From the NCBI RefSeq assembly GCF_027247405.1, contig NZ_CP097463.1, positions 1,674,001 to 1,738,000 on the forward strand: a stretch of 64,000 nt of DNA, read 5' to 3'. Source of the stretch: Jatrophihabitans cynanchi (GTDB lineage Bacteria > Actinomycetota > Actinomycetes > Mycobacteriales > Jatrophihabitantaceae). The notes below the pieces were generated by a model. The model did no database searches. It had not been told where the DNA came from and was given only the letters and a program-made list of their open reading frames with translations. Shown here piece by piece: positions 54,180-61,938 of this stretch (position 1 is the first letter of the stretch; each line of letters begins with the position of its first letter). Position numbers and translations under genes: made by a program.

Positions 54180-54183
<4 letters not shown>

Positions 54184-55085
54184 GGTCGCCCATCCTGCCA
54201 GCCGTCGCGGGCGGCCCGGTTGCCCGGCCCGTCCGGCGGTGGTGCTACTCGGCCGGAGGCGCGCTGTCGTACGGGCCGGCCGGCGGGTTCGTCGGGTGCT
54301 GCGGGGCCCGTCGGCTGCGTGCCGTACGGCTGCGGCGCAACGTACGGTTGCGGTGCGCCTGACTGCTCCTGCGGCGGGTACGGCTGGCCGGCGAGCGGCC
54401 GGCTGAGCGGTGCGGGCGGGAGCGGAGCTGATGTCGGCGCTGGCGTCGGCGCTGATGTCGATGCGGCACGGCCGGCCAGCAGGAGCAGTACGCCACCGGC
54501 GATCGCGATCACCCCGCCGGCGACGGTGAGCCACAGGCCGACCTGCGGCCCGCGACTGAGCTCGAGGTCGACGCCCGATGCCTTGGCGAACTTGATGTAG
54601 CCGCTCCAGCCGTAGGTCTTGCCGCCGTCGGTGAACCGGTACTGCGACGTGACCACGAACCAGGCGATCACGACACACACCAGCGCCACGACGCCCGCCG
54701 CGATCGCGGCCTTGCCGGCGGAGGAGAACGGGTGGGCCGAGCCTCGCGAGAAGCGCGACTGCCTGCCGAGGATCAGCAGGAGGACACCCACCCCGACCAC
54801 CACGAGCAGGATCGGGCCGAGCAGGCCGATCTTGCCGTCGTCCCAGGCGTGGACCGCATCCGCCGCGTTCTGGGTCGCCGACTGCCCCTGATAGCTGATC
54901 TTGCCCTGCGGGCGGAACCACGGCGTGAAGGCGCCGATCAGGCCCAGAACGCCCGCCAGCGGGATGAGCCAGGCGTGCTGCGGTGGCTTCACCTGTTGCC
55001 TCGTCAGATAGCCGGACGCAGGGGGCGGCGGCACCGGCGATCCGGGTGCCGGGGCGGCACTGGGCGGTGGCGGGTACGAGGTCAT
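54180..55085 (-). CDS. proline-rich membrane protein of unknown function
   Basis: 301 residues. Pro-rich N-terminal tail ([13 protein letters not shown]), four hydrophobic helices ([73 protein letters not shown]) and a C-terminal Pro/Gln/Ala-rich tail ([20 protein letters not shown]). The extracytoplasmic loop includes [18 protein letters not shown]. Same architecture as the two paralogues 4-5 kb away, though without their FDPKSVN motif. Cotranscribed with folD by a 4-nt overlap. No function recognised. Confidence 0.8.
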
Positions 55086-55146: not shown

Positions 55147-56709
55147 TCAGTGGGCGAAATGACGCGTGCCGGTCAGGTACATCGTCGCGCCGGCCGCCGC
55201 GACCGCCTCGATGACCTCCGCGTCGCGGATCGAGCCGCCGGGCTGCACGATCACGCGCACGCCCGCGTCGAGCAGCACCTGCGCGCCGTCGGCGAACGGG
55301 AAGTACGCGTCGGACGCGGCGACGGCACCCGCCACCCGATCACCGGCGCGCGCCACCGCCAACCGGCACGAGTCGACGCGGTTGACCTGGCCCATACCGA
55401 CGCCGACGGTCGCACCGCCGCGCGCCAGCAGGATCGCGTTCGACTTCACCGCGCGCAGCGCCCGCCAGGCGAACACCAGGTCGGCAAAGGCCTTCTCGTC
55501 CAGGGCAGCGCCGCACGCGAGCGTCCAGGTTGCCGGGTCGTCGCCGGGTGCGTCGATCCGGTCGGCGCTCTGGACCAGCAGTCCGCCGGAGACCGGGCGC
55601 GTCTCCACGCTGGGCTCGCTCGAGCGGGCCCGCGCGATCAGCACGCGCAGGTCCTTCTTCTTGGCCCATCGCTCGAGCACGCCGTCCTCGTAGCCGGGCG
55701 CCACGACGACCTCGGTGAAGATCGGTCCGAGCTGGTCGGCCATCGCCATCGAGACCGGACGGTTCGTGGCGACCACCCCGCCGTACGCGCTTGCCGAATC
55801 GCACTCGTGCGCCTTTCGGTGCGCCTCGGCAATGTCCGCGCCGACAGCGATGCCGCACGGGTTGGCATGCTTGATGATGGCCACGCACGGCTCGCTGAAG
55901 TCGTACGCGGCCTTCCATGCGGCGTCGGCGTCGACGTAGTTGTTGTAGCTCATCTCCTTGCCGGCAAGCTGTTCGGCGTTCGCGATCCCTTCGCCGCCGG
56001 AGTTCGCCGGTTGGATGTACAGTGCCGCCTGCTGGTGCGGGTTCTCGCCGTACCGCAGTACCGCGGCCCGCTCGTACGACGCGGCGATCCAGCCGGGGAA
56101 CTGCGTCTGCGGCTCGCTCGCCACGTCCGACCCGAGCCAGGACGCGACGGCGATGTCATAGGACGCGGTGTGCCGGAACGCCTCGCGCGCAAACCGCTGC
56201 CGGTCGGCGAGCTCGAAGCCGCCGGCGCGGACCGCGTCCAGCACCTCGGCATAGTGCGACGGCGAGACGATCACCGTCATCGAGCCGTGGTTCTTCGCCG
56301 ACGCGCGCACCATGGCCGGCCCGCCGATGTCGATCTGCTCGACGATCTCCGGCGCACTCGCACCGCTGGCCACCGTCTCGGCGAACGGGTACAGGTTCGC
56401 GATCAGCAGCTGGAACGGTGCAATGCCCAGCTCGCTGATCTTCGCCACGTGCTCTGGATCGTTCTGGTCGGCGAGCAGGCCGGCGTGCACGTGCGGGTGC
56501 AGCGTCTTCACCCGGCCGCCGAGGATCTCCGGGAACCCGGTGACCTCCTCCACCGGAGTCACCGGCACGCCCAGGTCGCGGATGCGTGCCGCGGTCGAGC
56601 CGGTCGAGACGATCTCGACGCCCGCCTCGTGCAGGCCGCGGGCCAGCTCGTCCAGACCGGTCTTGTCGTAGACGCTGACCAGCGCGCGGGTGATGGCGAT
56701 CTTGCTCAT
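55147..56709 (-). CDS. purH: AICAR transformylase/IMP cyclohydrolase
   Basis: Last two steps of de novo IMP synthesis. 520 residues. N-terminal cyclohydrolase (MGS-like) domain with [15 protein letters not shown] and [15 protein letters not shown]-terminal transformylase with [38 protein letters not shown] and the ends [19 protein letters not shown] overlaps the purN stop by 4 nt. Confidence 0.97.
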
Positions 56710-57266
56710 TCAATCTCCTTGCACAGCAGGCGAATCGTCTCGATGTAGAGCGGCTTCTCGGCGGCTTGGATGCGCTCGCGCAGCGTGTTCTCGTCATCGC
56801 CCGGTTCGACGGCGACGGGAACCTGGGCGATCACCGGGCCGGTGTCGACGCCCTCGTCGACCCAGTGCACGGTGACTCCGGTGCGGTCCGCACCGGCGGC
56901 GAGCGCGTCGCGGATCGCGTGCGCGCCGGGGAAGGCGGGCAGCAGCGCCGGGTGGGTGTTCACGATCCGGAACCGGGTCACGATCTCGTGCGCGAGCAGC
57001 CGCATGAACCCGGCGAGCACCACCAGGTCCGGTTCGAACGCAGCGATCCGCTCGGCCAGCGCGGCGTTCCACGCGGCCCGATCGGGTTGGTCACGCAACG
57101 CGACGGCGAAGGTGGGCACGCCAGCGGCCCCGGATCGCGTCATCGCCGCGCACCCCGGGACGTCCGTGCCGGCGGCGACCACGAGCGGCCGCAGCACCGG
57201 ATCGTCGAGGATCGCCTGCAACGTGGTGCCGCTGCCCGACGCGAGGACGACAAGGCGGGCCGGCAC
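56706..57266 (-). CDS. purN: phosphoribosylglycinamide formyltransferase
   Basis: GAR transformylase, 10-formyl-THF-dependent. 186 residues. [15 protein letters not shown] phosphate loop, LAGFMRLL, the catalytic Asn/His segment [15 protein letters not shown] and [17 protein letters not shown] with catalytic Asp. GTG start 57266 preceded by TAGGCT at 8 nt. First of a purN-purH unit. Confidence 0.96.
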
Positions 57267-57274
57267 GTTCCGGG

Positions 57275-57280
57275 AGCCTA
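57275..57280 (-). promoter_or_regulatory. -10-like hexamer of purNH
   Basis: TAGGCT, 8 nt before the purN GTG. The TAG stop of the DUF6350 gene (57278-57280) is its first half. Confidence 0.45.
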
Positions 57281-58645
57281 CCCGGCGCGCTGGGAGCCAC
57301 CGCCGGCGTCGTCCGCATCGTCCGCGCCGGGATTCTGGCCGGCCGGTGACCGCACCGCGTCGGCGAGCAGTTGCAGCCGGCCGGCGGCGTCAGCGCGGCC
57401 CGATACGCCGGTGCCGCGTGCCCGGCTGACGAAGCGGGAGCGGGCGGCCGCCACACCGAGTCCTGCCGACGCCACGCCCGCGACGGCCACACCGGCGCTG
57501 AGGGCGAACCGCCACGGCGACGGCCCGATCGTGCTCAGGCCGCCCGCGCCGATCGCGCCGCCGGCCTGCCAGCCGAGCACGATCAGGCCCAGCAACACCC
57601 CGGCGGTCGCGGACCCGATCAACTGCCAGCGCGCGGCCCATGCGTCCTCGCGGCAGGCCAGTCGGGCGAGCAGCAGTCCGGCGAGCAGCGGGGTCAGCGC
57701 CATCAGCACCCAGACCGGCGCGTTCGCACCCGAGCCGTCCGGCATCGCACCCAGCAGCGGGAACGCCGGCAGCACGCCGTGCGCGGTCGTGAAGGCGCTC
57801 GCGCTCGACCCGCCTACGGCGAACCCCGGGCCGGCCAGGTACGCGGCCCCGGCGACGGCCGCGTTGGGCGCGGCGAGAACTCCCAGCAGCAGCACCGGGA
57901 CGCCGCCCCAGCCACCGCCGACCTGCGCGGACAGCGCCTCGATCCGGGCGTGGTGCACGACAGCGGAACCGGCGGCAAGCAGTGCCCCGGCGGCGAGGTA
58001 CACGCACAGCGCGACACCTGCCCCGCGCGCTCCTGCCCGAACGGACGCCGGGGTCCGTTCGGCCAGCAGATCGGACAGCGGTGAGTACAGCACCAGCGCC
58101 GTGCCGCCGCTGAACGCGAACAGCAGGAACGCCGCCGCGGCCACGCCGAGGAACGGTGCATCGCTGGTGCCGAGGGTGGCGTACGGGACGGCGAGGAGGC
58201 AGCAGCCGGTGAAGCTGACCGCCTGGGCAAGGCCGGCGAGCGCGAGCCGTAGCGGATCGCACTCGCCGATGCCGGCCGCCGCGTCGGCCAGTCCCGCACC
58301 GGCTCGCCAGGCAGTGATCGCGACGGCCCCCAGCATGCCGAGCGGCAGGAACGAGGCGGACGTGCCGTCGACCGTGACGCCGCCGTGCAGCGCGGCCAGG
58401 AAGGTGAGCAGCCCGGCATGGATGGCCGAGTGGGCGCGCCCGCCCGGCCCGGACACCGGCAGCCAGCAGACTGCGACGGCGAGGATGCCGACCGTCGCGC
58501 AGACGATTGCCGCGCCCGCGCCGGTCCAGGTCGCGGCGCGCCACAGCGAGCGGCCGGCAGCGCGGGGCACCACGCTGCGCCGCGCGGCAGCGCCGTCGTT
58601 CGGCGCGGCCGACGGCTCGCTGCAGTGCTCGCGCGGGCCAGGCAT
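57278..58645 (-). CDS. DUF6350-family multi-pass membrane protein
   Basis: 455 residues with ten or more hydrophobic helices rich in Ala and Gly: WTGAGAAIVCATVGILAVAVCWL, HSAIHAGLLTFLAALHGGVTVDG, LPLGMLGAVAITAWRAGAGLADA. This resembles the actinobacterial DUF6350 (PerM-like) family found near purN/purH in Streptomyces and mycobacteria. In mycobacteria PerM has been linked to cell division under stress; a similar role is only inferred. Ends in a polar tail with GADDADDAGGG. Confidence 0.82.
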   Translation of the reverse strand: MPGPREHCSEPSAAPNDGAAARRSVVPRAAGRSLWRAATWTGAGAAIVCATVGILAVAVCWLPVSGPGGRAHSAIHAGLLTFLAALHGGVTVDGTSASFLPLGMLGAVAITAWRAGAGLADAAAGIGECDPLRLALAGLAQAVSFTGCCLLAVPYATLGTSDAPFLGVAAAAFLLFAFSGGTALVLYSPLSDLLAERTPASVRAGARGAGVALCVYLAAGALLAAGSAVVHHARIEALSAQVGGGWGGVPVLLLGVLAAPNAAVAGAAYLAGPGFAVGGSSASAFTTAHGVLPAFPLLGAMPDGSGANAPVWVLMALTPLLAGLLLARLACREDAWAARWQLIGSATAGVLLGLIVLGWQAGGAIGAGGLSTIGPSPWRFALSAGVAVAGVASAGLGVAAARSRFVSRARGTGVSGRADAAGRLQLLADAVRSPAGQNPGADDADDAGGGSQRAG

Positions 58646-58722: not shown

Positions 58723-59895
58723 CTACTGCGGCGGCTGATCACCCGGTTCCGGACGCTCGTGCTGCGGCGCGGTGGCCGGCGGTGCCGGAGGCGGCGGCGC
58801 CTGCTGCGGCGCGGGTGGCACGGGTGGCGCGGCCTGCTGCGGGCGCGGCTGCGGCGCGGGCGGCTGCGGCGCGGGCGGCTGCGGCGCGGGCGGCTGCGGC
58901 GCGGGTGGCTGCGGCGCGGGTGGCTGCGGCGCTGACCCTGGGGCAGGCGGCGGGTAGCCGGGCTGCTGGCCGTAACCCGGTTGCTGCCCGTAACCAGGTT
59001 GCTGCCCGTAACCAGGCTGCGCACCGGGCTGCTGGCCGTAACCAGGCTGCGCACCGGGCTGCTGGCCGTAACCAGGCTGCGCACCGGGTTGCTGCCCGTA
59101 GCCGGGTTGCTGCCCGTAACCAGGCTGCGCACCGGGTTGCTGCCCGTACCCGAGTTGCGCACCGGGCTGCTGCCCGTACCCAGGTTGCTGCCCGTAACCA
59201 GGCTGCTGCCCGTAACCAGGCTGGCCGTACCCGGGCTGGCCGTACGGCGCCGTGCCCCCCGTACCCGGGTATCCGGCGGGCGCCGAACCCGTCGGGCGCA
59301 GCGTGCCGAACCCGCCGGTCTGCTGCACGCGCAGCACGGCTACGACCAGGGCGATGATCAGCAGGATCAACACGATCCAGTACGCCCAGCCGTGGCCGGC
59401 GTCCACGTCGCTGGCGCCGGAGTCGATCGTGGTCCCCTTGTAGTCGCCGTCCGGGATGACGGCCAGCGCGATCAGCGTGAAGATCACGCCGAGTGCCAGG
59501 CCGCCGATGCCGATCAGGCGGGCCGGAACGGGCAGGGAGACGTGCGGCGCCAAGATCGCGACTGCGATCGCCGCGGCGGCGATCAGCGCGAGCAGCACGC
59601 CGAACCAGCCGAAGAACCCGTGCCAGGCGCTGTTGCCTATGCCGTCGCACACGTCCTTGTACTGGCCGCGGTACTGCGCCGGCACGTCGGACAGGTGCTT
59701 GCACACCTGGTCGGCGTCCGAACCCTTCGCGGCGTAGTTGTAGTAGCTGAAGAAGGAGAAGATGAGCGCGAGCACCGAGGCGCCGACGGCCGCCCAGTCA
59801 AGCGGGTTGACCGATTTCGGGTCGAAGCCGGCCCGGGGTGTCCCGTAGCCGGTTGGCGGCGGGCCGGCCTGGCCTGGTGGCGGATACGCGGACAT
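58723..59895 (-). CDS. membrane protein with GYGQQPG and PAPQP repeat tails
   Basis: 390 residues. N-terminal Pro/Gly tail, conserved [11 protein letters not shown] (about 24-34), four helices ([82 protein letters not shown]) with a Cys-containing loop (DQVCKH, KDVCDG), then about 190 residues of low-complexity tail: GYGQQPG(AQP) repeats followed by PAPQP repeats, ending [14 protein letters not shown]. The tail should be cytoplasmic and disordered, prion-like in composition. Paralogue of the next gene upstream. Function unknown; protein-protein scaffolding is one possibility. Confidence 0.82.
58846..59250 (-). repeat. two adjacent in-frame minisatellites (PAPQP and GYGQQPG)
   Basis: From about 58846 to 58933, six copies of a 15-bp unit (GGCGGCTGCGGCGCG and close variants) encode PAPQP. 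From about 58959 to 59250, 21- to 30-bp units built on CCGTAACCAGGCTGC encode GYGQQPG or [10 protein letters not shown]. Neighbouring copies are nearly identical at DNA level. Confidence 0.9.
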
Positions 59896-59979
59896 TGGTA
59901 CACCAGCCTCTCGTGGCGCGCCGCGGCGCGCGGGAGTCGGGACGAGCTACCGGACGACTGTATCGCCCCTTTGAGACGG

Positions 59980-60016
59980 CTGTGCCGGGGCACGCAGTTT
60001 GCGTGCCCCGGCACAG
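59980..60016. terminator. terminator hairpin between the two paralogous membrane-protein genes
   Basis: Perfect 16-bp stem CTGTGCCGGGGCACGC / GCGTGCCCCGGCACAG with a 5-nt loop, 21 bp beyond the stop of the 60037 gene. It separates the paralogues into different transcripts. Confidence 0.85.
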
Positions 60017-60036
60017 TTTGACCGGATACGGCAGTA

Positions 60037-60819
60037 TCAGCGCGGCGGTCCCTGCGGCGGCGGTCCCTGCGGCGGGGCACCGTACTGCGGCGGACCCTGC
60101 GGCGGGCCTTGGGGCGGGGCACCGTACGGCGGCGGACCCGCCGGCGGCTGACCGGCCGGGCCACCCGCACCGTGCGCACCGGGTGCGTGCCCACCGATGT
60201 TCGGGATGCCGCCGAGCGCGCCGGGCAGCTTGCCGCCCCCTTGCTGGAAGCGCATCAGCGAGAGCACCAGCCCGGCGATGATCACGATCAGGCTGATCCA
60301 GTAACCGAAGCCGTGCCCCTCGTCCACGTACTTGTCGTAGCCCGGGCCACCGCCCAGGTAGTCCGGCACGACGAACAGCGCCAGGATGACGCAGAGCGTG
60401 GCGACCGCGTAGCAGCCGAGACCGATGAGCCGGTTCGGGAACGGCAGCTTGACCTGCGGCATGAACAGCTCCAGTGCGACGAGCGCGGAGCCGACCACGG
60501 CGAGCAGCATCGCGAACCAGCCGAAGAAGCCGTTCCACGCGCTCTCGGTCAGGTTGTAGTTGTCACACAGATCGCCGCAGTTCTTGGCGCTGAAGCTGTA
60601 GTAGCTGACGAAGGAGAAGATGAACGCCAGCAGGCCCGCGCCCATGATTCCCCAGTCGAGCTGGTTCACCGACTTCGGGTCGAAGCTCGCGCGTGCCGGC
60701 ATCCCGGCTCCGGGCGGCGGCCCCCAGGCGCCCGGTGGCGGGCCGCCCTGTGGGCCGCCGGGCGGCGGTGGCGGTGGTGATGCCGGTGGTGGTGGTGGTG
60801 GCGGCGGTTGGAACGTCAT
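60037..60819 (-). CDS. membrane protein, paralogue with FDPKSVN motif and P/G-rich tails
   Basis: 260 residues. Pro-rich N terminus (PPPPPPPP, then GGPQGGPPPGAWGPPPGAG), FDPKSVNQLDW (about 46-56), four helices aligned with those of the downstream paralogue, a loop with CGDLCDNYNL, GFFGWFAMLLAVVGSALVAL, and a C-terminal tail of PPYGAPPQGPPQ-type repeats. The shared motif, loop cysteines and FFGWF segment show common origin by duplication. Ribosome site GAGGAG before ATG 60819. Function unknown. Confidence 0.82.
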   Translation of the reverse strand: MTFQPPPPPPPPASPPPPPPGGPQGGPPPGAWGPPPGAGMPARASFDPKSVNQLDWGIMGAGLLAFIFSFVSYYSFSAKNCGDLCDNYNLTESAWNGFFGWFAMLLAVVGSALVALELFMPQVKLPFPNRLIGLGCYAVATLCVILALFVVPDYLGGGPGYDKYVDEGHGFGYWISLIVIIAGLVLSLMRFQQGGGKLPGALGGIPNIGGHAPGAHGAGGPAGQPPAGPPPYGAPPQGPPQGPPQYGAPPQGPPPQGPPR

Positions 60820-61020: not shown

Positions 61021-61899
61021 TCAGCCGGAGACGATCTCCCGCATCAACTGCGCGGTCTCGCTGGGCGTCCGGCCCACCTTGACCCCGGCGGCCTCGAGCG
61101 CTTCCTTCTTCGCCTGCGCGGTACCGGACGAGCCGGACACGATCGCGCCGGCGTGGCCCATCGTCTTGCCCTCGGGCGCGGTGAAGCCGGCGACGTAGCC
61201 GACGACCGGCTTGCGCACGTTGGCCTGGATGTACGCGGCAGCACGCTCCTCGGCGTCGCCGCCGATCTCGCCGATCATCACGATCGCGTCGGTCTCGTCG
61301 TCGTTCTGGAACGCCTCGAGACAGTCGATGTGCGTGGTGCCGATGATCGGGTCGCCGCCGATGCCGACGCAGGTGGAGAAGCCGAGATCGCGCAGCTCGT
61401 ACATCATCTGGTAGGTCAGCGTGCCGGACTTGGACACCAGGCCGATGCGTCCGGCCTTGGTGATGTCGGCCGGGATGATGCCGGCGTTCGACTTGCCGGG
61501 ACTGATCAGGCCCGGGCAGTTCGGCCCGATGATGCGCGTCTGCTTCCCTTGCGCGTAGGCCCAGAACGCCGCGGTGTCATGGACGGCGACGCCCTCGGTG
61601 ATCACCACCGCGAGCGGGATCTGCGCGTCGATCGCCTCGATCACCGAGTCCTTGGTGAACGCCGGCGGGACGAACCCGACGGCCACGTTCGCGCCGGTCT
61701 CGGCCATCGCGTCGGCCACCGTGCCGAACACCGGCAGCGAGGTGTCGCCGAACTCGGACTTCGTCCCGGCCTTGCGGGCGTTGACGCCGCCGACGACGTT
61801 GGCCCCCGAGGCGAGCATGCGCGCGGTGTGCTTCATGCCCTCCGAGCCGGTCATGCCCTGGACGATGATCCGGCTGTTCTCGTCGAGAAAGATGCTCAT
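61021..61899 (-). CDS. sucD: succinyl-CoA synthetase alpha subunit
   Basis: Substrate-level phosphorylation step of the TCA cycle. 292 residues. CoA-binding [40 protein letters not shown] and the phosphohistidine loop [12 protein letters not shown] 61899 selected; five more in-frame residues upstream lie in the sucC-sucD spacer. 39 nt separate it from sucC. Confidence 0.97.
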
Positions 61900-61938
61900 T
61901 TGCTCACTCCGCAAGCGTCATTCGCAGTTGCCATTGCC

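Follow-up and report, generated by a model that had tools for sequence, protein, structure and literature searches.

What are two adjacent and related membrane proteins, each with its own low-complexity tail, doing between sucD and a DUF6350 gene? The question is raised by a stretch of 64,000 nucleotides from Jatrophihabitans cynanchi (contig NZ_CP097463.1, positions 1,674,001 to 1,738,000 of the forward strand), which we analysed and call the window. A sequence-only reading had pointed out the two genes and guessed at an undescribed membrane-tethered scaffold with prion-like tails. We call the two proteins A and B, and a third one C.

Genes A, B and C and their neighbours

The features that we refer to below are the following (positions are those of the window).

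58723..59895, minus strand: protein A, an ORF of 390 aa with a short N-tail, a four-helix core and a 202-aa C-tail
residues 32-50, 98-116, 128-146 and 170-188 of A, minus strand: TM segments from a hydropathy scan
59794..59826, minus strand: FDPKSVN-x-LDW motif of A, residues 24-34, read from the translation
59647..59703, minus strand: Cys65 to Cys83 of A in the first outer loop, from hydropathy and loop analysis
60037..60819, minus strand: protein B, an ORF of 260 aa with a P-rich N-tail, a four-helix core and a 71-aa PPQGPPQYG C-tail
residues 58-76, 102-120, 132-150 and 171-189 of B, minus strand: TM segments from a hydropathy scan
60652..60684, minus strand: FDPKSVN-x-LDW motif of B, residues 46-56, read from the translation
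60565..60579, minus strand: Cys81 to Cys85 of B in the first outer loop, from hydropathy and loop analysis
54180..55085, minus strand: protein C, an ORF of 301 aa with four TM segments, the remote third member between purH and folD
57278..58645, minus strand: DUF6350 (PerM-type) membrane protein directly after A, PF19877 at E 1e-42
61021..61914, minus strand: sucD, the landmark before B, recognised from sequence and used as a BLAST landmark
56706..57266, minus strand: purN, flanking landmark, recognised and used in the same way
55147..56709, minus strand: purH, flanking landmark, likewise

On the minus strand the genes run whiB-like, B12-binding, sucC, sucD, B, A, DUF6350, purN, purH, C, folD, DUF3017 and mdh. 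DUF6350 and DUF3017 were named by their Pfam matches in the window; the other names (whiB-like, B12-binding, sucC, sucD, purN, purH, folD and mdh) are what we take these genes to be after looking over their translations by eye.

The four-helix cores of A and B are 47-49% identical (in two alignments), and the hydropathy scan predicts that A, B and C have four TM segments each. The predicted outer loops have a net acidic charge in A and B, and the inner loops a net basic or neutral one; from these charges the tails are predicted to be cytoplasmic. A and B are tandem paralogues and, going by the predicted segments, tetraspan membrane proteins. This agrees with the sequence-only reading, in which the adjacent paralogues share the FDPKSVN-x-LDW motif, four helices and a two-Cys loop (C65/C83 in A and C81/C85 in B). 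The Cys pair is not family-wide: a first outer loop with two Cys is present in only 4 of 59 aligned members, A and B included.

We worked with three family profiles, A1 (14 cores), A2 (18 cores combined) and A5 (59 rows). A2 finds only three members in the own genome, B at E 2.1e-56, A at E 1.9e-46 and C at E 7.8e-7. When a set of three C sequences was compared profile against profile, it scored 94.8% with A1, 93.8% with the intermediates described below, 7.9% with the second and third g8 copies and 1.4% with the DUF5336 set of family f2. The earlier reading was also right that the third protein is of similar architecture, and that A and B carry different low-complexity tails; both the compositions and the tandem-repeat arrays of the two tails differ.

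Relation to DUF5336 and to mycobacterial Rv0954

Nothing in A, B or C scored above cut-off in Pfam or NCBIfam. A and B reach 16.0 and 15.8 bits with DUF5336 (PF17270), below the Pfam gathering cut-off of 28.6, and C has no DUF5336 match in Pfam at E up to 1. We discarded weak matches of the three proteins to permease, citrate-transporter and Pericardin-repeat entries, which look like hydrophobic or low-complexity noise. In our assessment A and B are DUF5336 homologues but not curated members of PF17270.

Within our class sample of 148 genomes, A1 and PF17270 match the same 7 places in 6 genomes. None of the 11 genomes of family f2 is matched by A1 alone at E 0.001, so the link from A and B to DUF5336 needs intermediates. 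In profile-profile comparison A1 scored 99.8% with 16 intermediates, and these scored 97.0% with 10 f2 DUF5336 cores; A1 compared directly with the f2 cores gave 91.8% over 118 columns. DUF6350 and DUF3017 served as control sets, and every comparison with them stayed below 1%. Together with the gene order, the intermediates show that A and B are homologous to the mycobacteria-like DUF5336 gene that precedes a PerM-type DUF6350.

Matches to A2 are present in 53 of the 148 class genomes and in 48 of the 197 genomes of a phylum sample (the two samples share genomes). A search with a single sequence found a match in 16 of 24 genomes of the window's own family (f1), the own genome counted; the 8 genomes without a match by this search are mostly incomplete, but one of them (G015) is 99% complete. 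The named relatives in f1 include, out of 9 loci, 2 on contigs named Jatrophihabitans and 4 in Pseudonocardiales MAGs. Two DUF5336 matches were rejected. One, elsewhere in the own genome (L070), sits among frames that we recognised by eye as a cation-antiporter cluster, and the other (G078, L149) has an E of 3.8e-5 but no support from the family profile.

The actinobacterial layout of the locus is sucCD, one to three family copies, DUF6350, purN and purH. We fetched 15 loci from the own family. In 12 of them the family gene is flanked by sucD as well as DUF6350; 2 loci, at contig ends, have one of the two landmarks, and 1, on a 3.6-kb contig, has neither. For f2, DUF6350 follows the family gene in 10 of 11 genomes, purN is there in 11/11, and sucD lies within the same fetched stretch in 7/11. 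By Pfam, L118 has DUF5336 and then DUF6350, and in L138 DUF6350 adjoins a DUF5336 match that stays below threshold (23.3 bits). Twenty further regions from the class include 4 at the sucD locus and 16 without any landmark gene (L149, which has no confirmed family gene, is among these 16). Eight of 18 regions fetched later have sucD, purN, purH or folD and 10 do not. Landmarks are also present outside the class (L200, L201, L203 and L205), and from L200 the sucD-type neighbourhood seems to reach beyond it.

Some side observations belong here. At L200:4665-9468 (family f57), sucC and sucD are followed by a family gene on the opposite strand and then by purH. Two f2 genomes have a further weak member downstream of sucCD, at L126:6467-7561 (E 1e-7) and L128:7651-8424 (E 8e-5), with the main DUF5336 gene about 15 kb beyond it.

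Tandem copies are common in the own family: two or three were detected in 7 of the 13 loci with a complete interval between sucD and DUF6350 (the window and 12 others), namely the window, L031, L034, L035, L042, L044 and L045. The second copies are weaker in L042, L044 and L045 (E 3.8e-10, 8.1e-9 and 6.8e-7). In L044 and L045 the GYGQ-type tail is N-terminal in the first copy and C-terminal in the second. The tree groups A with the 606-aa copy of G005 at a support of 94/96, just under the tool's mark for good support, and leaves B without a resolved position. This grouping of A suggests that the A/B split may predate the two genera. In L034:7494-10105 and L035:7567-10235 the interval from sucD to DUF6350 holds three family genes in tandem; the second copy is nearly tail-less, and the third has a tail poor in P/Q/G/Y.

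The mycobacterial protein Rv0954 has been studied directly. According to the sections of PMC8093794 available to us, it has four TM helices, P and Q make up 18% and 15% of its C-terminal half, and its gene forms an operon with perM. The same sections place it at mid-cell from before septum formation until constriction, report 19 co-precipitating proteins (LamA, PbpA and PknH among them) and genetic interactions with pbpA, perM, rodA and others, and describe four phosphosites in the tail, whose phospho-mutants still localise; deletion of rv0954 had no phenotype, and a structural scaffold role was suggested (PMC8093794). Rv0955/PerM is conserved among mycobacteria and actinobacteria in the available part of PMC4450064, and that of PMC12004960 describes PerM-FtsB and says that conditional phenotypes for Rv0954 may be found. 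Among the papers that we searched, DUF6350 is named in one, on Cutibacterium acnes, and DUF5336 in none.

From its position before a PerM-type DUF6350, its number of TM segments, its length and its tail, we infer that the f2 DUF5336 gene is Rv0954; the f2 gene in L118 has 302 aa, and the available sections of PMC8093794 number Rv0954 to residue 303. A and B are like Rv0954 in having four TM helices, a P/Q-rich cytoplasmic tail (predicted in A and B) and a gene that adjoins PerM/DUF6350. They differ from it in being a tandem pair, in the two outer-loop Cys, in their S/T-poor tails and in scoring below the PF17270 cut-off. The kind of protein to which A and B belong is already described, as the Rv0954 type. 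ZipA of E. coli differs from this type, as it has a single TM helix and a folded FtsZ-binding domain. Wang and Ehrt, in the sections available, liken Rv0954 to ZipA as a membrane anchor with a P/Q-rich cytoplasmic stretch and consider it unlikely to fill ZipA's role (PMC8093794). They also describe rv0954 as a core gene of mycobacteria that has no homologues in other bacteria (PMC8093794, same sections). Our results extend this protein to a locus common to other actinobacterial families, beside DUF6350/PerM, so an Rv0954-type role could be studied in actinobacteria that are harmless.

Low-complexity tails and a proposed role

Our preferred reading, which we think is probably right, is that A and B are septum-associated adaptors of the Rv0954 type with tether-like tails, homologous to Rv0954 and encoded beside a PerM-type DUF6350. 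We favour it because of the profile chain with its controls, the gene order, the septal data on Rv0954 and the tail composition in 32 of 38 locus proteins (see below). Both ends of A and B would lie in the cytoplasm, and the proteins would accumulate at the division septum along with DUF6350, with the core contacting other membrane proteins for division or the cell wall. The tails, uncharged and rich in P/Q/G/Y, would be flexible, multivalent tethers of variable length that hold or recruit partners, and tandem copies would let one complex carry two different tails. In the A/B lineage the two outer-loop Cys may form a disulfide that stiffens the loop. Disulfides are required by LamA and by other envelope proteins of mycobacteria (PMC12421883, available part), which makes such a bond in A and B plausible at most.

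Several points speak against the adaptor reading: A and B fall under the DUF5336 cut-off, A1 misses f2, deletion of rv0954 is silent and the phospho-mutants of Rv0954 still localise, the C-tails of A and B are poorer in S+T than f2 tails, many regions are without landmarks, and 8 of 24 genomes of the own family lack a match. The earlier idea of a membrane-tethered scaffold was a reasonable guess, with tails that are predicted to be cytoplasmic, but such a role is not undescribed, as a scaffold had already been suggested for Rv0954 (PMC8093794, sections available). We regard it as partly supported but not new.

The tails were surveyed in 38 family proteins at the sucD locus (A, B, 21 from f1, 11 from f2 and 4 from f17), leaving out two partial f1 copies (L040 and L043) and the loci fetched later; N-terminal starts were chosen by rule and the N-tail lengths are approximate. 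The scan finds four hydrophobic segments in 35 of these proteins and five in 3. In 32/38 there is a tail that is 40 aa or longer and consists of P+Q+G+Y to at least 45%, so we did not find the lack of family conservation of the tails that the sequence-only reading had named as counting against it. What is conserved is the composition; tail sequence, length and carrying end vary among the 38, and neither the sequence nor the carrying end is conserved. The 25 C-tails of at least 60 aa have at most 6% K+R and at most 8% D+E.

In A, the C-tail (202 aa) has 29% P, 22% Q, 20% G, 7% Y and 1% S, and in B (71 aa) it has 31% P, 28% G, 11% Q, 2-3% Y and 0% S. S+T comes to 4% in A and 0% in B, against 6-24% in f2 tails, so phosphorylation of the tails is not obviously shared. 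High G+C does not explain the Q and Y of the A tail because base-shuffled DNA of the last 185 residues gives far less (a mean of 3.0% Q where 22.7% is observed, and of 0.6% Y where 8.1% is observed). The tails are encoded by these arrays.

58761..58932, minus strand: PAPQP part of the A tail, tandem DNA repeats with periods 15/30/45
58958..59245, minus strand: GYGQQPG part of the A tail, tandem DNA repeats with periods 15/18/30/48/78
60042..60159, minus strand: C-tail of B, tandem DNA repeats with periods 15/42

It is possible, though we would not bet on it, that the tails are passive spacers, that is, elastomer-like entropic linkers without specific binding, and that partners bind to the core alone. 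Chains with high P+G tend to be elastomeric and non-amyloid, and P+G makes up 50% of the C-tail in A and 60% in B, which by comparison puts these tails nearer to an elastomer-like flexible spacer than to a prion-like domain in the strict sense. The free variation in tail length, end and sequence, the tandem DNA repeats of the arrays and the copies in L034 and L035 that are nearly without a P/Q/G/Y-rich tail fit a spacer as well. What argues against it is the recurrence of YGQ far beyond tail composition in three families (173 occurrences against 13.85 in shuffled tails, present in 22 of the 38 locus proteins), although tandem duplication of the repeats inflates this count. Tandem copies with different tails and copies nearly without one are natural tail swaps on one core, so the question of tail function is directly testable.

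A condensate, in which the tails would bind one another in the manner of FUS-type low-complexity domains and enrich partners at the membrane, seems unlikely to us. Prion-like domains of the FUS or yeast type are uncharged, rich in Q/N/G/Y/S and poor in proline. The tails of A and B are alike in being uncharged and rich in Q and G, and the Y content of A and the excess of YGQ would suit self-association; they differ in their proline (29% and 31%) and serine (1% and 0%). The description of the tails as prion-like holds for their lack of charge and their Q/G/Y content and fails on P+G. In addition, K+R is only 1-2% in both C-tails, so Tyr-Arg stickers are lacking, and B has little Tyr to offer.

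Two other proteins in the own genome have similar tails and could co-assemble with A and B in such a condensate. The GYGQ codon pattern has 12 matches in A (58966-59232) and 50 in the own genome, against 21 for a backward control. Nine of the own-genome matches are in a 508-aa frame (L199:1492-3015, C1 ~4,382,000-4,383,500) that has a long Q/P- and GYGQ-rich N-terminal part and one hydrophobic stretch; it carries DUF4333 (PF14230, E 6.4e-9) and is an unrelated membrane protein with the same tail type. Four more are in a 329-aa frame (L198:1964-2950, C1 ~3,721,000-3,722,000) whose N-terminal part is GYGQ/P-rich; this frame has a single hydrophobic stretch, and its C-terminal domain matches nothing in Pfam. 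GYGQ-type tails are not unique to the A/B family in this genome. The f18 members (L146, L147 and L148), which are at another locus, have a conserved C-terminal segment (...FWFAVPVPRPLYAEDG...) after a P/Q/G-rich linker, in contrast to the open-ended tails at the sucD locus.

We also think it improbable that A and B are general envelope or metabolic membrane proteins, not division proteins, kept in place by an old operon structure: sucCD, purNH and folD are metabolic, many relatives are located elsewhere and the rv0954 deletion has no phenotype, but f1, f2 and part of f17 have retained the gene next to DUF6350, and Rv0954 is septal with division partners (PMC8093794, sections available, for both Rv0954 results).

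Predicted fold and likeness to claudins

The AlphaFold model of B, made with an alignment of 11 rows, has a mean pLDDT of 73.0 (about 90 in the helices) and a pTM of 0.59. It consists of four helices and three short strands (74-78, 89-92 and 165-169). The model of C, made from a single sequence, was unusable (mean pLDDT 54.8). With the B model, Foldseek returned 414 PDB matches at E <=10 and 8 at <=0.001 (best E 2.4e-4), and the best 50 of the 414 are all entries with TARPs or LHFPL4/GARLH4, or claudin-19. VIA-align of the same model gave MP20 with Z 11.8 over 139 residues (rmsd 3.9), where a Z below about 13 means a possibly common helical arrangement; TARPs, claudins, a designed claudin fold and synaptophysin came after it. 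The BFVD viral library had no match to the B fold at E <=0.001.

Support from sequence profiles is at noise level. Searched against 177,635 PDB sequences, A2 and A5 both put LHFPL4 and TARPs on top (LHFPL4 at E 0.043 with A2 and 0.018 with A5), but reversed A2 reaches E 0.015 with another protein, and the first 25 PDB matches of A5 include two unrelated chains. Neither A1 alone nor the DUF5336 set alone gave a claudin-type match in these searches. Because of this and the reversed control, we do not claim a sequence case for claudin homology. Claudin superfamily members have a W-GLW-C-C motif in the first outer loop; GLW-C-C is found in 0/76 family frames, and GLW is absent from A and B. The B model is like claudins, TARPs and LHFPL proteins in its predicted four helices and predicted small outer beta sheet, and B and its family are unlike them in lacking GLW-C-C, in having only three short strands and in a sequence profile that does no better than its reversed control. 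We conclude that the predicted fold of B is similar to the claudin type.

A more far-reaching idea, which we put forward as speculation and rather doubt, is that the Rv0954/FDPKSVN family represents the claudin/TARP/LHFPL/PMP22 tetraspan fold in bacteria, as a branch of it that works at the actinobacterial division septum. Like the eukaryotic proteins that they resemble, its members would then be auxiliary, partner-binding tetraspan proteins for DUF6350/PerM and septal cell-wall enzymes, with exchangeable, repeat-rich cytoplasmic tails that repeatedly diverged after tandem duplication. We found no described bacterial claudin in the literature (titles and the start of abstracts). Should the claudin-like fold prove real, there would be relatives at the bacterial septum of a tetraspan architecture that is eukaryotic in the best 50 of 414 structure matches, and this is the part that we consider worth a structure. 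Synaptophysin is a eukaryotic vesicle protein to which we found no sequence link, but PDB 9b8o_U aligns with the B model over 151 residues (Z 10.5), and the cytoplasmic tail of synaptophysin is rich in Y/G/Q/P.
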